Of a DNA stretch of 64,000 nucleotides, positions 5,199 through 14,221 are shown piece after piece. The notes beneath the pieces are model-generated. The model made no database searches. It worked only from the letters and a program-made list of their open reading frames with translations, and was not told the origin of the DNA. The stretch comes from Ruegeria sp. SCSIO 43209. GTDB lineage: Bacteria > Pseudomonadota > Alphaproteobacteria > Rhodobacterales > Rhodobacteraceae. Position numbers and translations under genes: made by a program. The stretch spans positions 3,589,433-3,653,432 of the forward strand of contig NZ_CP065359.1 of assembly GCF_019904295.1 (NCBI RefSeq), in the 5' to 3' direction. Numbering within the stretch: the first letter of the stretch is position 1; every line of letters starts with the position of its first letter.

Positions 5199-5666
5199 AT
5201 GCGTACATTTGACTTCGCACCACTTCACCGCGCAACCATCGGTTTCGACCAGATTGCAGACATGATGGACCGGGTTTTGACCAATGACGTGGCTCAGCCC
5301 AGCTATCCCCCTTACAACATCGAAAAGACCGATGCTGATACCTACCGCATTTCGGTCGCTGTTGCAGGGTTTTCCGAGGCCGATCTGTCGGTTGAGGTAA
5401 AGGAAAATTCTCTGGTGGTTTCCGGCAAGAAAGCTTCGGACGAAAAAGAGCGCAGCTACCTGCACCGTGGCATCGCCACCCGCGCGTTCGAGCGCCGCTT
5501 TGCTCTGGCCGACCACGTTCGCGTTACCGGCGCGAGCCATGAGAACGGCATGCTGAACATCGATCTGAAGCGCGAAGTGCCAGAAGCCCTGAAGCCGCGC
5601 CGGATCGAAATTTCGTCTGGCAAGGCCATTGAAAAGGACGTGGTTGACGCCAAAGCCGTGAACTGA
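5199..5666 (+). CDS. Small heat-shock protein, Hsp20/IbpA family
   Basis: The product has 155 residues and is an ATP-independent cytoplasmic holdase that keeps unfolding proteins soluble for DnaK/ClpB. The alpha-crystallin domain runs from about residue 35 (YNIEKTDADTYRISVAVAGF) to about residue 130, with the class-defining ENGMLNIDLKREVPE. The N-terminus MRTFDFAPLHRATIGFD is typical of alphaproteobacterial IbpA-like class A proteins. Control by RpoH and an RNA thermometer is suggested by the preceding elements. A 9-base perfect inverted repeat follows downstream. Confidence 0.93.
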   Translation: MRTFDFAPLHRATIGFDQIADMMDRVLTNDVAQPSYPPYNIEKTDADTYRISVAVAGFSEADLSVEVKENSLVVSGKKASDEKERSYLHRGIATRAFERRFALADHVRVTGASHENGMLNIDLKREVPEALKPRRIEISSGKAIEKDVVDAKAVN

Positions 5667-5717
5667 GGCTGTTGATCACTTAGCGACAGTCCCGCCTCTC
5701 TGGATTGTCGCACCACA

Positions 5718-5745
5718 CGCCCCGCGTTCCTCCAGGCGCGGGGCG
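5718..5745 (+). terminator. GC-rich inverted repeat after hsp20, possible terminator
   Basis: CGCCCCGCG (5718-5726) and CGCGGGGCG (5737-5745) are exact reverse complements separated by 10 bases, 52 bases after the hsp20 stop. There is no T-run, so termination would be weak or Rho-assisted. Confidence 0.45.
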
Positions 5746-5889
5746 AAGTTGTATCCATCGCAACACGGACATGGTGGGCAACACGTTTTCACGAAAATCT
5801 GGCAATAGTTTAGGTCGTCAGGCTAGTCTCTTCTGGAACACTTCAATGAACTGAATTTTGTTCACTGCCTTCAGAGGGAGACGAAATAG

Positions 5890-6321
5890 ATGCGAATGAA
5901 ATCCGTTATTGCCGCTATAGTCTGTGCCGTTGTTGCATCGACCACACTGACCGCGACACCAACCCGTGCCAACGATACAGGAGCGCTTATCGCTGGGGTC
6001 GCGTTGGGTGTGCTGGGAGCGTCGATCGCCAAACACCATCACAAGCACGGATCAAAATACCAGAAGCACCCGCATGTTTCGCCGGAGGAGAATGCGATCG
6101 GGCTCTGTATGCATCGGACCCACACCGCCATGAGCAATCAAGGCTACTATGCCGTCGATTTTGAGCGGACGCTTTCCTATACGACGAATTCTGATGGCAT
6201 CGATCTGATTGATTTGGAGGTCGCGCGCTCAAAGGACAGCAATGACGCGCGGAGCCACATAAAAGCCCATTGCGCTATTCAAGATGATGCTGTGGTCAAT
6301 TTCCGGTATTCGAACTACTGA
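5890..6321 (+). CDS. Small exported protein of unknown function
   Basis: The product has 143 residues, with a clear signal peptide (MRMKSVIAAIVCAVVAS to about ATPTRAN). A glycine/alanine-rich hydrophobic stretch (GALIAGVALGVLGASIA, about residues 31-47) and a His/Lys-rich patch (KHHHKHGSKYQKHPH) follow. Two cysteines (in IGLCMHR and AHCAIQD) could form a disulfide in the periplasm. The ribosome binding site GAGGGAG lies well placed before the ATG. I do not recognise the family. It stands alone, separated by about 200 bases on each side, so it is probably a single transcription unit. Confidence 0.7.
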   Translation: MRMKSVIAAIVCAVVASTTLTATPTRANDTGALIAGVALGVLGASIAKHHHKHGSKYQKHPHVSPEENAIGLCMHRTHTAMSNQGYYAVDFERTLSYTTNSDGIDLIDLEVARSKDSNDARSHIKAHCAIQDDAVVNFRYSNY

Positions 6322-6490
6322 GCTTGCCATCGGCAGCTTCAACTTAAGAAATCCAAGAGCTTCTATTTTCCCTTCTGAAAACCAGCGGGCAATGTGTCTC
6401 GGCCTTGTCTCTGCGTCTATCTTTTTAGCGTCGAGTTTGTCACAGTCTTGGTGATTTGGAGACCCAAGGGGATGTAAATTGCCATAACAT

Positions 6491-6524
6491 TCCCTATGTC
6501 ATTGGATGATAAGAAGAATAGGGA
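6491..6524 (+). promoter_or_regulatory. Inverted repeat covering the ribosome binding site of the 6531 operon
   Basis: TCCCTAT (6491-6497) is complementary to ATAGGGA (6518-6524), 20 bases apart. The second arm contains the purine-rich ribosome binding region directly before the ATG at 6531. It could be an operator or an RNA hairpin limiting translation of the first gene of the operon. Function is inferred from position only. Confidence 0.3.
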
Positions 6525-6530
6525 TAGCAG

Positions 6531-7610
6531 ATGTCGAACCAGCAATTCGAAGCATTGATTCAAGAGACGCAACAGAAAGTCCGCGAAAGCCAGTCGCAGA
6601 TTGAAGGCTTGACCTCACGGATCGAAGCGGCGCGTGCCAAGATCGGAACCGCAGAGGCAGATATCGACATTGAAAATGCCACTTTGGAAGATGTGCACGC
6701 CCATACCGAGGTGATGAACGCCAACATCGCTGAGCTGATCATGGGGCTCGACGACGTGACCAACGCGTTTTCTAAGGATTTCGACGAAATGCGTTCGAAA
6801 ACCGGGTGGGAGTCGTTCGTCGGCATCTTCGCCAAGGCCAAATCCGAGTCCATGCGGCAGGAACGCATGCGCACCGCCAATATCGACGACAAGCTACAGG
6901 ACCTGATCGCTAAATCGGATGTGATCGTCAAACTGCTTGAAGGGCAGTTGGCCGTGCTGGAAGAACAGCGCGTCAAGGTCGAGGACAACCTGACCGTCAC
7001 GCTGGACGACCGCGAGGCGACCGTGGCCGAACTGGAGGCTTTGCGGGCAGAGATTCAGGGCATGGACCCGGCGATCATCACGCTGGAAAACAAGATCAGC
7101 GTCGAACAGGATGCCGCCGCGCGGACTCAGCTGGAAACTGAACTGGCCGAGCTGAACAAGCAATACAACGCCAAGGTTCAGGAAGAGCAGGTCAAGCTGG
7201 CCAAGTCTCAGACGTTGGAGCGGTACATCGAAAAGGGTAAAACTTGGGTCGATTCACTCCAGAACCAGGCAGCGACGCAGATGGTGCTGATCAACAAGCT
7301 GCAGACAGACACGCAACAACGCGTGGTGCTGTATGACGCCCTGACCAAATCGCTGAAAACTGCACAGCAGCAGGACGTGGCCCACCGCATCAACGAGATC
7401 GGTGTGCAGACGGACCAAGAGGCGCAGACCGCCATGGCCGCCATCGGCACCGCGACCAATCAGAAAATGGCCGACATGCTTGAGGCGCATGAGGACCACA
7501 TGGTCTTTGCCCGCGACGTGCTGGAGAAAAAGGCCAAGGCAGATGAACGCTTTGCCCGCCGGTTCGCGTCGATTGTCGAGAAGCATGATAAGAATTTGTA
7601 TGGTGGTTAA
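6531..7610 (+). CDS. Long coiled-coil protein, possibly TelA-like; first gene of an eight-gene operon
   Basis: The product has 359 residues, without signal peptide or membrane segment, so it is cytoplasmic. It is Ala/Glu/Gln-rich with heptad-like patterning over most of its length (about 5-65, 130-215 and 230-350), broken by an aromatic patch GWESFVGIFAKAK near residues 91-103. The C-terminal half (LERYIEKGKTWVDSLQNQAATQM onward) has the length and rhythm of TelA/KlaA toxic-anion-resistance proteins, but the resemblance is weak by eye and unverified. The next gene begins on the base after its stop. As the first gene before an AAA ATPase gene it could be a structural partner or substrate of that ATPase; that is inference. 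Confidence 0.75.
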   Translation: MSNQQFEALIQETQQKVRESQSQIEGLTSRIEAARAKIGTAEADIDIENATLEDVHAHTEVMNANIAELIMGLDDVTNAFSKDFDEMRSKTGWESFVGIFAKAKSESMRQERMRTANIDDKLQDLIAKSDVIVKLLEGQLAVLEEQRVKVEDNLTVTLDDREATVAELEALRAEIQGMDPAIITLENKISVEQDAAARTQLETELAELNKQYNAKVQEEQVKLAKSQTLERYIEKGKTWVDSLQNQAATQMVLINKLQTDTQQRVVLYDALTKSLKTAQQQDVAHRINEIGVQTDQEAQTAMAAIGTATNQKMADMLEAHEDHMVFARDVLEKKAKADERFARRFASIVEKHDKNLYGG

Positions 7611-7931
7611 GTGCGTTTCGCTCACCAACAATTTCTATTACTAGCAGTTAGTCTTGGTCCCTTGGAGGTGCCGAGATTCTTGGAAAAATTTGGTTTCATA
7701 GATCAGAAGCCGACTTATCCTGAAGTGCTACAGGTATTGCTTATGGCAGTAATTGCGGCTTGCTTAATGCGACTTCTGTGTTGGTTGAGTTGGGGCAGCG
7801 AAAGGGGGCGGCGTTTTCAGCACTCGGTTGGGATCAACCCTCAAGTAGTACTGCATAGTGTCGGTTCGCCTCTCTTTAGATGGTGGTTTCATATCGACAA
7901 AAACGGGAAGGACTTGGACGCCCCAAGATGA
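7611..7931 (+). CDS. Small membrane protein of unknown function, AT-rich
   Basis: The product has 106 residues from a GTG directly abutting the previous stop codon. It overlaps the next gene by the four bases ATGA (7928-7931), so coupling on both sides supports a real gene. One strong membrane segment (VLQVLLMAVIAACLMRLLCWLSW, about residues 40-62) is preceded by a possible second hydrophobic stretch at the N-terminus. The base composition is visibly lower in GC than the genes on either side, suggesting separate acquisition or weak constraint. No family recognised. Confidence 0.5.
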   Translation: MRFAHQQFLLLAVSLGPLEVPRFLEKFGFIDQKPTYPEVLQVLLMAVIAACLMRLLCWLSWGSERGRRFQHSVGINPQVVLHSVGSPLFRWWFHIDKNGKDLDAPR

Positions 7932-9052
7932 CCGATACCAACCCCACCCAAGACCATGTCGGCCTGACCGACACCTTCGCCTCACGCCGCTATTTCCGCA
8001 AATTCGAAGTCATCACCGTCCACCTCCTGCGCGTGGCCGCGACGATGGAGGCGGAGGGCGCAATCAGCAAGCAAGAGGTGCGGATCGTGTCGCGCTACCT
8101 CTCGGGGCTGCTCTACACCTTCCGCGCGCTTTCCATGAAGTATCTGCTGGTCGGTCGCGATACGGGACGGTTTTTTGGCAGCCTTGCGATGGACAAGCGT
8201 GACAGCGGTTTTCCGGTGGCGGCTGAGCTGCTGACCATGGCCAATGACGCGCAGCAGGCGCAGGTGCATCTGGCGAATATGCCATCCGAGGATGATCTGA
8301 AAACCGATATGGTGCGAACGATCATCGGCGATCAGGAAATCCCCACCAAGCTGCAATTCGCATTGTCCCAAAGGCTCTATTACGAGGAGTTGTTGAAGGG
8401 AGAGCTGTTCTGGGCCCGCAACGATCCCGAGTGCCACTGGATCGGGAATGAGGGCGATCGGCGGAAGTTCATGATCCACTGGGCGGTCTATGACAGCCAG
8501 ATCAACCTGCCAGTGATCTACCTGATGCAACTGGAGGACAGCGGCAAAACCGCCCTTCCCAAAGACCAACGCCGCTGGCCCGAAGTGCAGGCGCATCTGA
8601 TGGCGCAGTCTCTGGGCGGGTTGAAACTGGTGACCATTGCCAATGGCTTCGATCAGGATTTCGACGACCTGCACCCCAAACACCTGCGCCGCATTCATGT
8701 GGGGCCAATGTATTCCTCGGCCTATACCGAACAATCCGGCCCCCTGCGGCAGGTGCTGGAGGATGCGCAATCTCCGCAAGGTCAGGATTGGGCGCTGGCC
8801 TGGACCACGGAAGAGCTGGAAAGCGAAGATGTGATCGAAGAACGCGCCGGTTGGTTTTCCACCGTCGAACGTGAGGTCTTTGCTCTCGACCCATTCGGCG
8901 CGCAAGGGGCCGAAACCGGGGCCACACGCACCCAACGGTCGATCATCTTGCCCCAGCGTCCGTTTCAGGTGCTGGCCGAGCGTAACCCTCCAGGGTTTGC
9001 CGATGTGCGCAAGTTCGTGGTCAGCAAGTCAGGGCAGGTGTTGAGGTATTAG
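7928..9052 (+). CDS. Conserved-looking protein of unknown function in the AAA/Mrr operon
   Basis: The product has 374 residues using the ATG at 7928 (MTDTNPTQDHVG), which overlaps the preceding stop as ATGA. It is soluble, with no signal peptide. An all-helical N-terminal region (about 20-125) precedes a mixed region with several aromatic patches (ECHWIGNEGDRRKFMIHWAVYD). The C-terminal part is acidic and ends KFVVSKSGQVLRY. High GC and biased third positions mark it as genuine coding sequence. I cannot assign a family. A 55-base gap containing a UUCG-type hairpin (CGCC-TTCG-GCG) separates it from the ATPase gene. Confidence 0.72.
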   Translation: MTDTNPTQDHVGLTDTFASRRYFRKFEVITVHLLRVAATMEAEGAISKQEVRIVSRYLSGLLYTFRALSMKYLLVGRDTGRFFGSLAMDKRDSGFPVAAELLTMANDAQQAQVHLANMPSEDDLKTDMVRTIIGDQEIPTKLQFALSQRLYYEELLKGELFWARNDPECHWIGNEGDRRKFMIHWAVYDSQINLPVIYLMQLEDSGKTALPKDQRRWPEVQAHLMAQSLGGLKLVTIANGFDQDFDDLHPKHLRRIHVGPMYSSAYTEQSGPLRQVLEDAQSPQGQDWALAWTTEELESEDVIEERAGWFSTVEREVFALDPFGAQGAETGATRTQRSIILPQRPFQVLAERNPPGFADVRKFVVSKSGQVLRY

Positions 9053-9067
9053 TTTCGCCTTCGGCGA

Positions 9068-9089
9068 GAGTATTTTTGAAAAAGATGAA
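9068..9089 (+). repeat. Short intergenic motif, copy 2 (GAGTATTT..AGATGAA type)
   Basis: GAGTATTTTTGAAAAAGATG plus AA lies in the 55-base gap before the AAA ATPase gene, directly after a CGCC-TTCG-GCG hairpin. It matches the copies at 921-942 and 58907-58929. Confidence 0.5.
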
Positions 9090-9107
9090 TCAAGGGCGGT
9101 TTTTAAG

Positions 9108-11045
9108 ATGAGTTTGACGTCAGATCAGATGGAATTGCGCGAGGCGGATATTCGCAAGCATTACCCGGCAGCGACCGCCTTGCTGAATGGGTTCGAACAC
9201 GCGCCGCGGATTGCCAAGGCGGTGGAGACGTCGACGGAACGGTCGCCGGGGGTGTCGACCGGACGGAGGTTTCGGTCCACCACGCCGGGTTTGGTGACAC
9301 GGCGCACAGTGCGCGCAGACGGGGTGCATTTGGTCGAACGGATCGAGGCCTCGGATGATGGCGATGCGCTGGTCTCGCCACCGCAGGCCACAACGCAGCA
9401 GGCAATCCGCCGTGCGGTTGCCATCGCTCTGGCGGTGAGCGAGGCCTACGCCGAACAGACACCGTTGGCAGACTTGAAACGCGCGAACCTTGCGGGCGAT
9501 TTGCCCGCCGCGCGGAAGACCGAATTCTCGGAACTGCTGACTGCCGAGGCTCTGATCACCTCGCACACCTTCGGCAATGCGCTGGCGTACTTGATGTCCT
9601 CGCATCTGGGAGAGACCACTGTCGATATCGGTGAGATCGAAGAGGTCCTGACCGACAACGGCCAACTCGCCTTGCACGGCGCGCTGTGGGAGTTGGACCA
9701 GACCCTTGCCAAACACGCCCCCGATGATGCCCACCTGATCGCAGCCACCAGCGCCTATGCCGAGCAATTGATGGAAAAGGTCGCTCTACGCGCCCAGTCC
9801 GCAGGCCATCTGGCACCGTTCCAGAATGCCGCCTGGCATATCGAAGCGGATGACCTGACAATCCGGGGGTTCGAACCTGCGTCCAAAGCCAAATCCACCA
9901 CGCTAACCATGACGTTCAAGAAACCGAACGAGGTGGTGGGCAACCATATCGCCAAGTATCAGGCGATGAAACTGGCCAAGATGGTGATGGCCTACGACTT
10001 CGACCGACGCCTGAACCCGTTTGCTGAGCTTGGCGGGTTCATCTTTACCTTCATGGGCGACGGCAAACCGGGCACCGGTAAAACCACTCTGATCCAGATG
10101 ATGGCCGGGCTGATCAACGACTATTGCCAGAACGCGGCTTATCCCTTCCGCTATCAGAACCTGAGCACCGACAATATCGACAGCTATCAGGGCAAGTCGG
10201 GCCAGAACGCCAAGGCTTTTATCAACACGATCATTGACCCCTCAGTCATAGGTTTCGGCACCATCGACGATATCGACCAACTGGCGGGCAAACGCGGCGA
10301 CCGGCAGTCGTCAGCCGGGCAGTTGGAAATCACCGCCGTGCTGATGGAGAGCTTTGCGGGCGCCAACACCGTCGTGCGCGGCAACTGCACCTTTGGCATG
10401 TTCTCGAACTACCCCGAGAATGTGGACGACGCCCTGCGCCAACGGGCAGGCGCGCGGTTCCTGGTGGACGGGCCGCAAACGCGCGAGGATTACATCGACA
10501 TCCTGCACCTGCTGATGGGCCGCAATCACGACATTCCGCTGGGCGAACACGAAGCCTATGCCGCGCAGGAAATCAAAAAGGCCGTCGCGGCCAGCTTCGA
10601 AAGCCATTCCCGACCGCATGAGGATGCGCTGCTGCAAGTCTATGATCGGGTCTCCGGCGATATCGGCCAGATGGACACGATTGCCAAACTGGGCACCTAC
10701 CTCAAGGCGATCCAACAGGCCGATGAGCGCTTTACCGGCCGCGCGATCAAGAACATCACCGACGCGGTCAAGGTGCGTGCGATGGATTTCGAACTGCCCG
10801 ACGAATGGATGGAAAACCCCGACCTGTTCCTGTTCCGCGACTACGACACCAAGAAGTCGATGATCGAGGACCTGCGCCAGCCGATCACGGTCGAGATGGT
10901 GATGCAAGAGATCAACCGCTACGCCGACAGCGAGTTCCGCTATGCCGACAAGAGCGACGAGATCGCCATCGAAAACGCCGTCCGCGAGATGGGCCGGATG
11001 GAAGAGGCGAAGCGGCGGTATTTAGAAGGAAAGAACATTGACTAG
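9108..11045 (+). CDS. AAA-type ATPase of unknown function
   Basis: The product has 645 residues. An N-terminal region of about 300 residues without recognisable motif precedes an AAA module: Walker A GKPGTGKTT at about 319-327, Walker B GFGTIDDID with acidic pair Asp387-Asp388, and a sensor/arginine-finger-like stretch ENVDDALRQRAGARF near residues 437-451. This architecture fits a ring-forming remodelling ATPase rather than a DNA helicase; no helicase or protease motif is visible. It is the only energy-consuming enzyme in the operon. The gene ends by overlapping the downstream Mrr-type gene by 8 bases (TTGACTAG). Substrate and partner are unknown. Confidence 0.82.
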   Translation: MSLTSDQMELREADIRKHYPAATALLNGFEHAPRIAKAVETSTERSPGVSTGRRFRSTTPGLVTRRTVRADGVHLVERIEASDDGDALVSPPQATTQQAIRRAVAIALAVSEAYAEQTPLADLKRANLAGDLPAARKTEFSELLTAEALITSHTFGNALAYLMSSHLGETTVDIGEIEEVLTDNGQLALHGALWELDQTLAKHAPDDAHLIAATSAYAEQLMEKVALRAQSAGHLAPFQNAAWHIEADDLTIRGFEPASKAKSTTLTMTFKKPNEVVGNHIAKYQAMKLAKMVMAYDFDRRLNPFAELGGFIFTFMGDGKPGTGKTTLIQMMAGLINDYCQNAAYPFRYQNLSTDNIDSYQGKSGQNAKAFINTIIDPSVIGFGTIDDIDQLAGKRGDRQSSAGQLEITAVLMESFAGANTVVRGNCTFGMFSNYPENVDDALRQRAGARFLVDGPQTREDYIDILHLLMGRNHDIPLGEHEAYAAQEIKKAVAASFESHSRPHEDALLQVYDRVSGDIGQMDTIAKLGTYLKAIQQADERFTGRAIKNITDAVKVRAMDFELPDEWMENPDLFLFRDYDTKKSMIEDLRQPITVEMVMQEINRYADSEFRYADKSDEIAIENAVREMGRMEEAKRRYLEGKNID

Positions 11046-11964
11046 AAGATTTGTAATTGAAGCGGAAGGCTTTCCGGATTTGCCGGGTATGATGCTGGTT
11101 ACACTAGAGGCTTTGCGCGCTATGGGTGGTTCTGGAACCATTCAAGAAATGGATGAAAAGGTTGCAGAGCTTGAGGGTGTAACAGAAGAAGAGCAAGCAT
11201 TTCAGATGTCTGGTGATGATCCTCGTCCCAGATTGAACTACTATCTAGCTTGGTCGCGAACTTATCTAAAGCGTGGTGGAGCAATTGAGAACTCTGCTCG
11301 TGGAGTCTGGGCCATAACCGAATCCGGGGCACGAATAACCGAATATAAACAAACAAAAGAAATTAGCGATCAAGTTAATGCGGAAGAGCGCGAAAAAGCG
11401 CGGTTAAAACGCCTTGAAAAGAAAGCGAAAGAAGAAAAAGTACAACAAAGCCCTGAATTCATAACCGGCTCAATGGCAGCGGTTGAGGGACCTGACAGTA
11501 GCGTTCGGGATTGGCGTAATGAGCTCTTGGACGTTCTAAAATCGATGGACCCATCAGCGTTTGAAAGACTTGCCCAACGACTACTGAGAGAAAGTGGTTT
11601 CACTAAGGTGGAGGTCAGAGGAAAGTCGGGCGATGGAGGGATAGACGGGGTCGGTGTTCTCAGAGTCAACCTTGTTTCGTTCCAAGTCTTTTTTCAATGC
11701 AAACGGTATAAAGGTAGCGTTGGATCCTCTGATATTCGCGACTTTAGAGGCGCGATGATGGGACGTGCAGACAAAGGTCTGTTCATAACAACCGGAAGTT
11801 TTACGGCCCAAGCATCGGATGAAGCGACCCGCGACGGCGCGACAGCGATAGATCTGATTGATGGGGAACGGCTGTGTGATTTGCTAAAAGACAATGAACT
11901 TGGTGTCTCAAAAAGGATGATTGAAGAAGTTCATGTTGATGAAAACTGGTTCATGAGCATATGA
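11038..11964 (+). CDS. Mrr-type restriction endonuclease-like protein
   Basis: The product has 308 residues from a TTG start inside the end of the ATPase gene. The N-terminus (about 1-105) resembles the Mrr winged-helix DNA-recognition domain (LNYYLAWSRTYLKRGGAIENS). A charged Lys/Glu linker (about 110-137) follows, then the PD-(D/E)xK nuclease fold with FERLAQRLLRESGF (Glu176), GDGGIDG (Asp203), FFQCKRYKG (Gln220, Lys222) and FITTGSFTAQASDEA. Mrr-family enzymes cut modified DNA in several bacteria. Base composition is much more AT-rich than the flanking genes, which points to horizontal acquisition. Yet the gene overlaps both neighbours (8 bases upstream, ATGA downstream), so it is expressed as part of the operon. 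Confidence 0.85.
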   Translation: MTRRFVIEAEGFPDLPGMMLVTLEALRAMGGSGTIQEMDEKVAELEGVTEEEQAFQMSGDDPRPRLNYYLAWSRTYLKRGGAIENSARGVWAITESGARITEYKQTKEISDQVNAEEREKARLKRLEKKAKEEKVQQSPEFITGSMAAVEGPDSSVRDWRNELLDVLKSMDPSAFERLAQRLLRESGFTKVEVRGKSGDGGIDGVGVLRVNLVSFQVFFQCKRYKGSVGSSDIRDFRGAMMGRADKGLFITTGSFTAQASDEATRDGATAIDLIDGERLCDLLKDNELGVSKRMIEEVHVDENWFMSI

Positions 11965-13298
11965 TCCGCCTCATCGAAAAAGGCTTGATGTTCGGCAACC
12001 TCGTCCACATCTCCAGCCCGGCTCTGGTCGAGCGGTATAACCGCGCGCTGCAGCATCTGGCGGGCAAGACCACGGCGCTGACCGATTTCCATGTCGATAT
12101 CTCGGGTTATTCTCCGGAGGTGGGGATTGAGCTGGAGGATGAGCTTTACCTCAATCCCAACGGGGTCAACCGGCAGTTCATCCTGCTGACGACCGAGCAG
12201 AAACGCGCGCCTTTGCTGAACGTCAAATTTTCTACCTCGCGCGATATCCTGCGCGAATTCATCGAGATGAACGAGGCGCAGCTTTTTGCTCTGACCGCCA
12301 CCGATGCGGTGGCCGGAGAGCTGGTGAACTCAGTCATCAAACTCAGCACGCCGCGCGACCTGTTGAACCTGAGCAAGATCGAGATCGAGGCCGACACCGC
12401 AGGCGGCACCCTACGCAAGGCCCAGCAGCTAGCGGGCATGGTCGAACGTTTCAAAACCGAAGAGGATGCATGGTTCGACGATGTGCTGATCGCCAAGATG
12501 ATCGAAACCGCCAAAGAAACTGGCGACGTAACGCGCAATCCGGTGCGCCTGCGCCATACCGCTTTCGAGCAGTGCAACTTCTGGACGGCACACTTTGGCG
12601 GGCTCTACCTGTTCCCGGATATGGATCACCCGGCGGCGATTTGCATGGGCGAAAAGCCTGACGATATGCCGATCAAATATATTTTTGACCCGTCGCAGCG
12701 GAACCAGATTGCCAAGTTTCTCGACTACAACGATCTGGTTGAACCTATCGTTAAGGCGCGCGGCGTGGATGCCGCAGCGATCTTACAACAGAAGATGGAC
12801 TTTCTGACCATTGCTGCGGCTGCTGACGCAGATGTTGATCTGAGCGGGCTGGATCGCAGCGATATGCGACGACTGGCCCGCAATCACGCCGATCGCCTAC
12901 CCGAGGCGTATCACGGCCTCGCACAACTGTTGCGCTGGGCGACGGATGGCGGGCGCTGGCCACGCATCACCTCGGATCATCCCGCTTATTTCTACACATT
13001 GCGCGCAGCCGATACGCCGAACCGCGATCTGGTGAATATGCTGTTGACCGAATTGGCTCCGCTGGATCCGCGGCAGATGTTCATCTGCCACAAGGAATTG
13101 TTTTATAGTACTTACAGGACCTGGCCCGAGACCAAGAAAGCCTATGTTGCCGACTTCCTTGCCCGCGAGTATCAGGTGGACAAGGCTGGTGCGCGGGCGG
13201 CTTTATTTGGTCATGAACCTGATATGTTAGGCAATGACCGGGTCAGCGAAACAGTGATCGCACGGGTCGGCCCTTGGGGCGCGGTCAGGAGAGATTAA
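11961..13298 (+). CDS. Protein of unknown function in the AAA/Mrr operon
   Basis: The product has 445 residues starting at the ATG that overlaps the Mrr stop (ATGA). It is soluble, with no signal peptide, GC-rich like the ATPase gene. The N-terminal third is mixed (FHVDISGYSPEVGIELEDELY); the middle contains a helical region (TLRKAQQLAGMVERFKTEEDAWFDD) and a Cys/aromatic patch (EQCNFWTAHFGGLYLFPDMDH). I see no nucleotide-binding loop or metal site. I cannot assign a function. Its position between the nuclease and two membrane proteins suggests a shared process with the AAA ATPase. Confidence 0.72.
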   Translation: MIRLIEKGLMFGNLVHISSPALVERYNRALQHLAGKTTALTDFHVDISGYSPEVGIELEDELYLNPNGVNRQFILLTTEQKRAPLLNVKFSTSRDILREFIEMNEAQLFALTATDAVAGELVNSVIKLSTPRDLLNLSKIEIEADTAGGTLRKAQQLAGMVERFKTEEDAWFDDVLIAKMIETAKETGDVTRNPVRLRHTAFEQCNFWTAHFGGLYLFPDMDHPAAICMGEKPDDMPIKYIFDPSQRNQIAKFLDYNDLVEPIVKARGVDAAAILQQKMDFLTIAAAADADVDLSGLDRSDMRRLARNHADRLPEAYHGLAQLLRWATDGGRWPRITSDHPAYFYTLRAADTPNRDLVNMLLTELAPLDPRQMFICHKELFYSTYRTWPETKKAYVADFLAREYQVDKAGARAALFGHEPDMLGNDRVSETVIARVGPWGAVRRD

Positions 13299-13299
13299 G

Positions 13300-13566
13300 A
13301 TGTTCGGAGCGTTGCGCCTGTTTCTGATCCTGCTGGTGATCCAGACGATTGCCTATTTCGCGCTGTCCTTTTATTCGCGAGGAGTTAGGCGGCGAAAGTT
13401 GGAGACGTGGTGGGACGAAAAGGGCAAAACCGGTAACAAAGAAGCGTTTGTTGCGCGAGGTTTGCACGTCTACGACAACTCATTCCGGCGCAAACTGATT
13501 TTGGGTGTCTATATTGTACCTTGGGTGGCGATTGGCGCGCTGATCTACATCGTGAATTACATGTGA
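13300..13566 (+). CDS. Small two-helix membrane protein
   Basis: The product has 88 residues, starting one base after the preceding stop. Two membrane segments are visible, at about 4-24 (ALRLFLILLVIQTIAYFALSF) and about 66-86 (LILGVYIVPWVAIGALIYIV), joined by a basic loop of roughly 40 residues (SRGVRRRKLETWWDEKGKTG) likely facing the cytoplasm. It could anchor the soluble operon products at the inner membrane. No family recognised. Confidence 0.7.
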   Translation: MFGALRLFLILLVIQTIAYFALSFYSRGVRRRKLETWWDEKGKTGNKEAFVARGLHVYDNSFRRKLILGVYIVPWVAIGALIYIVNYM

Positions 13567-13576
13567 GGGTTAAGGC

Positions 13577-14221
13577 ATGGCCTATGTGAAATGGGCGTTC
13601 ATTATCATCTTCTGGGGCACGATCGCCGTGATCTTGCAGTATTCCCTACCGCAGCACGATGTGGTGCGGATCGTCAACACCTACGAGGAACGTCAGGACC
13701 TGACGGACTGGACGCGAATCTTCTGGTCCGAGCCTGAAGATCAATCCACCAGCCTGTCAAACCGCGATGTACAGTTCATTCAGGCCGTACGCGCCAACGG
13801 GAAGCCGATTGTCTATCGCAACGAAGACACCGGTTGGGGCTGGCCGCCTTATTTCAAGTTCGACACTGCGAACCTTTACACCGAGGCCAACGATGCCAAG
13901 TCGACCAAAGATAACCCCGATTGGGTGGTCGTAACGCACTACGGCTGGCGGAATGAATTCATGTCGATTTTTCCCAACGCAATTTTCATCCGGCATGTCG
14001 AGGGGCCGGATGTCCGCATCATCCCGTGGTTCAATATCGTCTTCCTGACTGTGTTTGCTGCGCTGGTTTGGGCCATCTGGGTTCGATGGCGGCGGTTTCG
14101 GCAAAAGAAGATCGATCCTGTTTTGGAGAACATGGAAGATGGTCTTTACGCCGCTGGTGATGCAATAGATGAAAAGCGCAAGGGCTTTCGCCGCTGGCTG
14201 GACAGTTGGAAATCCAAGTAA
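13577..14221 (+). CDS. DUF1523-like membrane protein
   Basis: The product has 214 residues and is the last gene of the operon. A membrane segment at about 4-22 (VKWAFIIIFWGTIAVILQY) is followed by a periplasmic-looking domain of about 125 residues rich in Trp/Tyr, with DTGWGWPPYFKFDTANLYTE and VVTHYGWRNEFMSIFPNA. A second membrane segment lies near 155-175 (NIVFLTVFAALVWAIWVRW), then a basic cytoplasmic tail. This layout matches my recollection of the DUF1523 family of Rhodobacteraceae, whose function is unknown. Convergent with flgI; only 38 bases separate the two. Confidence 0.7.
   Translation: MAYVKWAFIIIFWGTIAVILQYSLPQHDVVRIVNTYEERQDLTDWTRIFWSEPEDQSTSLSNRDVQFIQAVRANGKPIVYRNEDTGWGWPPYFKFDTANLYTEANDAKSTKDNPDWVVVTHYGWRNEFMSIFPNAIFIRHVEGPDVRIIPWFNIVFLTVFAALVWAIWVRWRRFRQKKIDPVLENMEDGLYAAGDAIDEKRKGFRRWLDSWKSK

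Follow-up and report, generated by a model that had tools for sequence, protein, structure and literature searches.

Comparative sequence analysis of a 64,000-nucleotide stretch of Ruegeria sp. SCSIO 43209 (contig NZ_CP065359.1, forward-strand positions 3,589,433 to 3,653,432; the window hereafter) indicated that the operon at its positions 6531–14221 comprises a conserved core of six genes (c1, c3, c4, c6, c7, and c8, with c4 encoding an AAA ATPase) and two further genes, c2 and c5, that sit in exchange slots (Table 1). We tentatively interpret this locus, with a probability of about 0.42, as a membrane system for stress response or abortive infection, centred on the AAA ATPase and equipped with interchangeable effectors. 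The core, the slots, their coupling to the core, the selection on slot genes, their exchange, and their restriction to one slot could all be read from sequence comparison. What makes the locus interesting is the pair of slots, more than the nuclease encoded by c5.

Checking of the open reading frames (ORFs) in the window, which belongs to a genome of 4.6 Mb in 6 contigs, found all eight on the + strand, head to tail, with the overlaps and gaps that an earlier note on this DNA had given. Scanning genome contigs for relatives of the ATPase returned at least 579, of which the best 80 loci were kept; the closest c4 relatives among these were from Ruegeria species, at 98% identity. Ruegeria pomeroyi also has a relative of c4, at 80% identity. 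Ten shorter loci were added for the tblastn comparison (90 loci). Together with the genus loci and three others this gave 134 loci, reduced to 111 distinct ones by dropping 22 duplicates and locus L027, at which only the ATPase was found. The genus set consisted of 54 genomes, one per species, and provided 51 loci. The six core genes held the same order in most loci, the exceptions being L027, L028 (without c6 to c8), L059 (without c7), and several loci cut by contig ends. An order shared by six of the eight genes across dozens of genomes is more than chance would give. Searched for by means of c3, the core was present in 51 of the 54 genus genomes.

The slot genes behaved differently from the core. 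No tblastn match to c2 was obtained in the 90 loci (ten of which were too short to reach slot 1), and c2 formed a cluster of its own among the 111 loci. The Mrr-type nuclease gene c5 was matched in 2 of the 90 loci (L019, and L087 among the ten shorter ones), and its cluster occupied slot 2 in 4 of the 51 genus loci, the window included. The earlier note had treated the eight genes as one unit built on an AAA ATPase and an Mrr nuclease. They are instead a six-gene core with two variable slot genes, and the nuclease is variable cargo on which the operon is not built. The note's description of a coupled operon of mostly uncharacterised proteins, gathered around an AAA ATPase and including membrane proteins, was borne out, and the set without the nuclease, whose conservation it had raised, does keep its order across loci. 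Among the 111 loci a gene was called in slot 1 at 88 of 110 (103 genes in 53 clusters) and in slot 2 at 101 of 107 (159 genes in 58 clusters); slot 3, between c3 and c4, was rarely used (14 of 111). Some of the called slot genes are surely spurious. A stricter count, limited to proteins of at least 70 aa on the + strand, gave 42, 46, and 4 clusters for slots 1, 2, and 3, respectively, and clusters 8, 20, 22, and 32, judged spurious, were excluded from the sharing counts below. Median slot lengths were 273 bases for slot 1 and 735 bases for slot 2.

Table 1. Genes and slots of the operon (positions in the window).
Feature	Position	Strand	Description and basis
c1	6531..7610	+	Core coiled-coil protein, 359 aa; ORF; matches of 73-99% identity in loci reaching that far
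c2	7611..7931	+	Slot-1 cargo, small protein with hydrophobic stretch, 106 aa; ORF
c3	7928..9052	+	Core protein of unknown family, 374 aa; ORF and alignment
c4	9108..11045	+	Core AAA ATPase, 645 aa; PF00004, E 1.9e-11; alignment
c5	11038..11964	+	Slot-2 cargo, predicted Mrr-type nuclease (Mrr_N and Mrr_cat), 308 aa
c6	11961..13298	+	Core DUF6638 protein, 445 aa; PF20343, E 1.4e-232
c7	13300..13566	+	Core small membrane protein, 88 aa; ORF; place conserved
c8	13577..14221	+	Core DUF1523 membrane protein, 214 aa; PF07509, E 8.2e-71; three allele groups in the genus
Slot 1	7611..7927	+	c1 stop to c3 start; 317 bases in the window
Slot 2	11046..11960	+	c4 stop to c6 start; 915 bases in the window
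Slot 3	9053..9107	+	c3 stop to c4 start; 55 bases, empty in the window

Turnover of the slot genes within the genus was extensive. Each of the two slots was filled in 50 of 51 loci, with 21 gene families in slot 1 and 22 in slot 2 arranged in 48 combinations; the median identity of the ATPase genes was 88.6%. Among the 1225 pairs with filled slots, 154 shared the same family in slot 2 and 95 in slot 1. Sharing did not depend on c4 identity (slot 2, rho −0.03, p = 0.31; slot 1, rho −0.02, p = 0.58). A tree was built from the concatenated core genes, with support of at least 0.9 at 30 of 48 nodes; on it the slot labels carried no detectable phylogenetic signal: the first slot-1 gene changed 37 times vs. 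39.3 in shuffles (p = 0.11), the first slot-2 gene 37 vs. 38.8 (p = 0.20), and the slot-2 set 41 vs. 40.5 (p = 0.82). The tree itself was informative, because the c8 allele followed it, with 12 changes vs. 19.5 in shuffles and 0 of 1000 shuffles as low. Nearby genes did not share this variability: in a flanking control, flgI, flgL, and flgK were all found at 21 of 23 loci, with a gap of −4 between flgI and flgL in 21 and between flgL and flgK in 20.

The contents of slots 1 and 2 were not clearly linked to each other (14.7 vs. 11.9%), nor was there a clear pairing of cargo with the c8 allele, which was the same in 29% of pairs sharing slot-2 content vs. 41% of the others, and in 47% vs. 39% for slot 1. 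The 200 bases next to a slot were slightly more similar in pairs with the same content, both for slot 2 (91.3 vs. 90.6 and 93.7 vs. 92.4%) and for slot 1 (93.2 vs. 92.3 and 90.3 vs. 88.4%). Mid-gene stretches differed equally in the slot-2 pairs (93.5 vs. 93.0 and 80.8 vs. 79.5), and no such difference was seen in the slot-1 pairs (87.1 vs. 87.5 and 87.4 vs. 88.5). This amounts at most to a hint of recombination through the flanks for slot 1.

Slot genes were frequently joined to the core by start-stop overlaps. Of 96 loci in which slot 2 measured at least 250 bases, 54 carried an ORF of at least 90 codons starting in the four-base overlap with the AAA stop; in 60 such an ORF ended where it overlaps the start of c6, and both junctions were present in 37. 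As a control, which applies to the starts only, out-of-frame start codons inside c4 opened such a frame in 2 of 104 cases. The slot-gene caller was simple and favoured junctions; the junction counts given here were made without it. In slot 1, counted without a control, 33 of 81 loci started at the overlap and 51 of 81 ended at the overlap or four bases on. The median ratio of nonsynonymous to synonymous substitution rates (dN/dS) within clusters was 0.03–0.48 in the 16 of 21 clusters for which it could be estimated, several of them from few pairs, indicating that the slot genes are mostly under purifying selection.

The slot genes also kept to their positions. None of the 44 multi-member clusters occurred in more than one slot, compared with a mean of 32.5 in shuffles, which never fell below 25. 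In the 54 genus genomes, all 11 matches of slot-2 family 1 and all 9 of slot-1 family 3 lay inside the operon, while slot-2 family 0 had 9 matches in the operon, 2 elsewhere at E values of about 1e-12, and 2 elsewhere that were marginal. Of the Mrr gene, the four full-length close copies were all in slot 2; elsewhere lay a further close copy, split into two pieces, and four distant relatives. The four cargo families tested were nearly confined to their own slots.

In the window, c2 starts with GTG immediately 3′ of the c1 stop (a 0-base gap), and c3 overlaps the c2 end by four bases at position 7928. A longer c3 starting from the ATG at 7880 was rejected, since the relatives in the alignment gave it no support. 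The nuclease gene c5 starts with TTG in an 8-base overlap with c4, and c6 overlaps the c5 end by four bases; the remaining intergenic gaps are 55, 1, and 10 bases. A terminator-like hairpin was noted at 9053–9069, directly after the c3 stop and ahead of the ATPase, in a region where the count of such sites was not above that of shuffles. Variability was also seen between the Hsp20 gene and c1 (window 5666–6531), where relatives (L001–L021) have differing ORFs over about 0.8 to 6 kb.

Searches of Pfam named c4 (AAA), c5 (Mrr_N and Mrr_cat), c6 (DUF6638), and c8 (DUF1523), while c1, c2, c3, and c7 had no family above the cut-off, c3 having no match at all; NCBIfam gave no match above the cut-off for any of the eight proteins. 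Both domains of c5 were above the cut-off (PF04471, E 1.8e-32; PF14338, E 2.8e-16). PADLOC recognised the nuclease and, more weakly, matched the AAA domain to TRIP13 (E 3.5e-6) and the coil of c1 to LmuB (E 0.003). The TRIP13 match was the only sign of a CBASS (cyclic oligonucleotide-based antiphage signalling system) of the TRIP13/HORMA kind, which was rejected, as PADLOC gave no cyclase or HORMA match. In c4, GDGKPGTGKTT is the Walker A motif and IDDID stands at the position of Walker B, the usual form of which is IDE; IDDID, with D387 and D388, was invariant in 23 of 23 aligned ATPases. The earlier note had taken both motifs to be intact, but Walker B is non-canonical, and c6, which it had placed in no known family, is the DUF6638 protein. 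The predicted model of c6 (predicted local distance difference test score 75) had no fold match in the PDB with an E value under 0.88, and profile searches of the PDB with c3, c6, c4, and c1 returned nothing useful. Alleles of c8 fell into three groups of 29, 11, and 11 loci in the genus and were most variable at residues 41–60 and 101–120; its two hydrophobic stretches and its alleles suggest that c8 is a part of the cell envelope.

Nearly all slot-1 genes were predicted by a simple hydropathy scan to encode small membrane proteins: a helix was found in 38 of 42 clusters, and no cluster reached 170 aa. In slot 2, 30 of 46 clusters (≥70 aa) had a predicted membrane helix and 17 clusters were of at least 170 aa. 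When 43 small slot proteins were compared with Pfam, five families had a match at an E value of 0.01, with one member each. Matches among slot-2 proteins included Mrr (the window and L019), AbiJ_NTD4 above the cut-off (L020), putAbiC in a separate ORF after a piece with two transmembrane helices (L048), HNH just below the cut-off (L044), weak HEPN (L055 and L066), PDC-S31 (L042), a weak HATPase together with DrmA (L067), and a thioredoxin-like protein (L061); one member, most likely that of L042, also matched DUF2971. Slot-2 family 0, present in 18 loci, is predicted to have two helices and a coil. Its link to AbiC would be indirect, running through relatives, of which 5 of 78 among the matches listed carry the AbiC domain PF16872. 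Phaeobacter inhibens has one of these family-0 relatives. A long ORF of 412 aa was observed on the minus strand of slot 2 at L063, and a Hint_2 match (E 4e-52) in one of 32 scanned slot-2 proteins probably belongs to it.

Defence likeness was evaluated with PADLOC by comparing 32 slot-2 proteins chosen from the 80 loci with 32 random flanking proteins of 150–350 aa. At least 8 of the 32 slot-2 proteins matched at an E value of 0.01 (two Mrr; L008, L042, L044, L055, L066, and L067), and some further families had one unassigned member each. The flanking proteins gave LmuA 4, Avs1b 4, two ZorB models 2 each, mad2 1, RT-Protease 1, and MTase_II 1; as the output counted members per family rather than per protein, their total is a range, 4 to 15 of 32. 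Because flanking genes of like size match PADLOC models too, no general defence enrichment is claimed. Some of the slot genes nevertheless make a role in stress or defence plausible.

Beyond the genus, 63 of the 149 family genomes contained c3 (69 of 149 contained DUF6638), as did 4 of 240 genomes of the class with a narrow profile and 7 of 385 with a broader one, and, with the broader profile, 26 of 398 genomes of the phylum; the class and phylum scans scored few first-look candidates per genome and may have missed distant c3 genes. The c3 gene was carried by 10 plasmid-typed records (Vibrio, Sinorhizobium, Rhizobium, and Shinella) and was absent from phage records. Viral contigs held neither c3 nor slot-2 family 1; one of 35.8 kb (L205) encoded a distant relative (29%) of slot-2 family 0. 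The genes c1, c3, c4, and c6 stood together in 18 distant loci, of which ten came from a single family. Slot 2 was empty (<70 bases) in 11 of these, Vibrio among them, measured 294–425 bases without a clear gene in 3, and held a DUF559 endonuclease in 4 (L169 and L195 by Pfam, L194 and L203 by likeness only). At L169, from Sinorhizobium meliloti, the DUF559 gene adjoined an IS4 transposase, and at L200 a Fic-family gene lay in slot 3, between c3 and the ATPase. The large negative gaps seen at L193 and L201 probably reflect incorrect start calls. Since slot 2 is empty in such distant loci, the core can stand without cargo, and the empty-slot form is probably the older one.

On the effector interpretation, the core would sit at the inner membrane as sensor and switch for a stress such as phage attack, and interchangeable subunits from the two slots would be co-translated with it. 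Slot 1 would supply a small multi-helix membrane protein; slot 2 would contribute more small membrane proteins or an effector that is toxic (a nuclease or a protein resembling HEPN, AbiC, or AbiJ). An envelope event could be reported by c8 and c7, upon which the ATPase would remodel a complex of c1, c3, and c6, and the slot-2 effector held by that complex would be released or activated and stop the cell or the invader. Swapping of slot genes between species, each in its own slot, may keep the response diverse. That the core senses stress, that it holds and releases the effector, and that the system serves in defence is what we infer from this arrangement. Pursued to its full extent, for which we would give somewhat less than even odds, it would make the locus an undescribed combinatorial immune or stress machine centred on the AAA ATPase, with membrane subunit and effector drawn independently from large slot-restricted pools, so that nearly every species has its own combination on a fixed core.

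Several observations weigh against this interpretation. Almost every genome of the genus has the core, which is also found without cargo outside it, and this fits a housekeeping role. IDDID at the Walker B position might mean weak hydrolysis. Families with a defence-like match fill about 29 of 107 slot-2 loci, 18 of them with family 0; the other slot-2 genes and almost all slot-1 genes are of unknown family, and PADLOC enrichment of slot 2 over flanking proteins was not shown (at least 8 of 32 vs. 4 to 15 of 32). No paper with a related title was found on DUF1523, DUF6638, or DUF2333, and we know of no phenotype for any core gene.

The most serious alternative, possible although we hold it less probable, is that the core performs a housekeeping task in envelope or protein remodelling and that its gaps are landing sites, where accessory genes, some of them defensive, gain expression and act independently. 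The empty slots of distant relatives, such as the 11 of 18 that include Vibrio, and the presence of c3 in 51 of 54 genus genomes argue for it, and the DUF559 and Fic genes in gaps of distant loci, the S. meliloti copy beside an IS4 transposase, and the variable Hsp20–c1 stretch are in line with it. Slot restriction argues in the other direction, for an effector machine: a plain landing site does not predict that 0 of 44 multi-member clusters cross slots, that the cargo families tested seldom occur at other places in these genomes, or that clusters of at least 170 aa number 17 in slot 2 and none in slot 1, although recombination through the flanks could produce all three. It is also conceivable, though unlikely, that the slot genes are polymorphic parts for self-recognition or competition (toxin/immunity or pore formers), whose membrane insertion or release is controlled by the core and whose diversity serves bacterial competition rather than phage defence. 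The prevalence of membrane helices (38 of 42 slot-1 and 30 of 46 slot-2 clusters) and the three allele groups of the envelope protein c8 would suit such a role; set against it are the nucleases and the HEPN-like and Abi-like proteins of slot 2, and the lack of any tie between shared slot-2 cargo and identity of the c8 allele (29 vs. 41%).

The earlier note had further seen a weak likeness of c1 to TelA, which would point to a Ter-like stress response. Beyond the position of a coiled-coil protein beside an ATPase and membrane proteins, this was not substantiated, and a Ter/TelA-like operon is very improbable. Comparison of c1 with TelA (PF05816) gave an hhalign probability of 0.4% (E 0.15), with the TelA profile made from the 10 of 20 TelA loci in the right frame, and c1 had no Pfam TelA match at an E value of 1. 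A true TelA gene is located elsewhere in the genome, far from the operon (C1:2116654-2117640), and TelA was found in 60 of 61 genomes of the order.

If the effector interpretation is correct, the locus would add a system for defence or stress whose core families (c1, c3, DUF6638, and DUF1523) have no known function, and it would offer dozens of natural slot genes, mostly of no known family, that could be tried singly on one common core. It would also imply that effector exchange can be confined to fixed positions inside a genus-wide operon. Even as landing sites, the slots would be a cheap place to seek new small defence genes. No description of the operon was found in the literature searched, which left out most subscription journals.

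Among known systems, the nucleoside triphosphate (NTP)-dependent conflict systems with variable effectors, which combine a MoxR-type ATPase with a vWA co-chaperone, are similar in logic (eLife 2020, PMC7159879). As there, an AAA+ ATPase core and conserved partners are accompanied by genes that vary between genomes, here putative effectors, and the mechanism proposed above would resemble their NTPase-thresholded logic with other parts. The operon differs from the MoxR-vWA systems in that c4 is a classical AAA protein (PF00004) accompanied by c1, c3, and DUF6638, and in having two separate variable positions; no vWA family was found among the eight proteins with Pfam or NCBIfam. With the Mrr type IV restriction enzymes the operon shares c5, a predicted nuclease with Mrr_N and Mrr_cat, which is here one of many alternative cargo genes and does not define the operon. 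Bacteriophage exclusion (BREX) loci have auxiliary effectors embedded in their core (Nucleic Acids Res 2026, PMC12839542) and so likewise hold differing nucleases inside a conserved locus. In contrast to them, the present core is near-fixed in one genus and many of its variable genes are small; no PglZ, BrxC, or methyltransferase match was found among the eight proteins with Pfam, NCBIfam, or PADLOC. The core defence hotspots of Pseudomonas aeruginosa are described as holding whole systems, their median lengths being 26 and 6 kb (Nucleic Acids Res 2023, PMC10250203). They share with the present locus the arrangement of varying genes between fixed flanking core genes, from which it differs in that its slots lie inside one operon, are often start-stop coupled, and harbour slot-restricted families.

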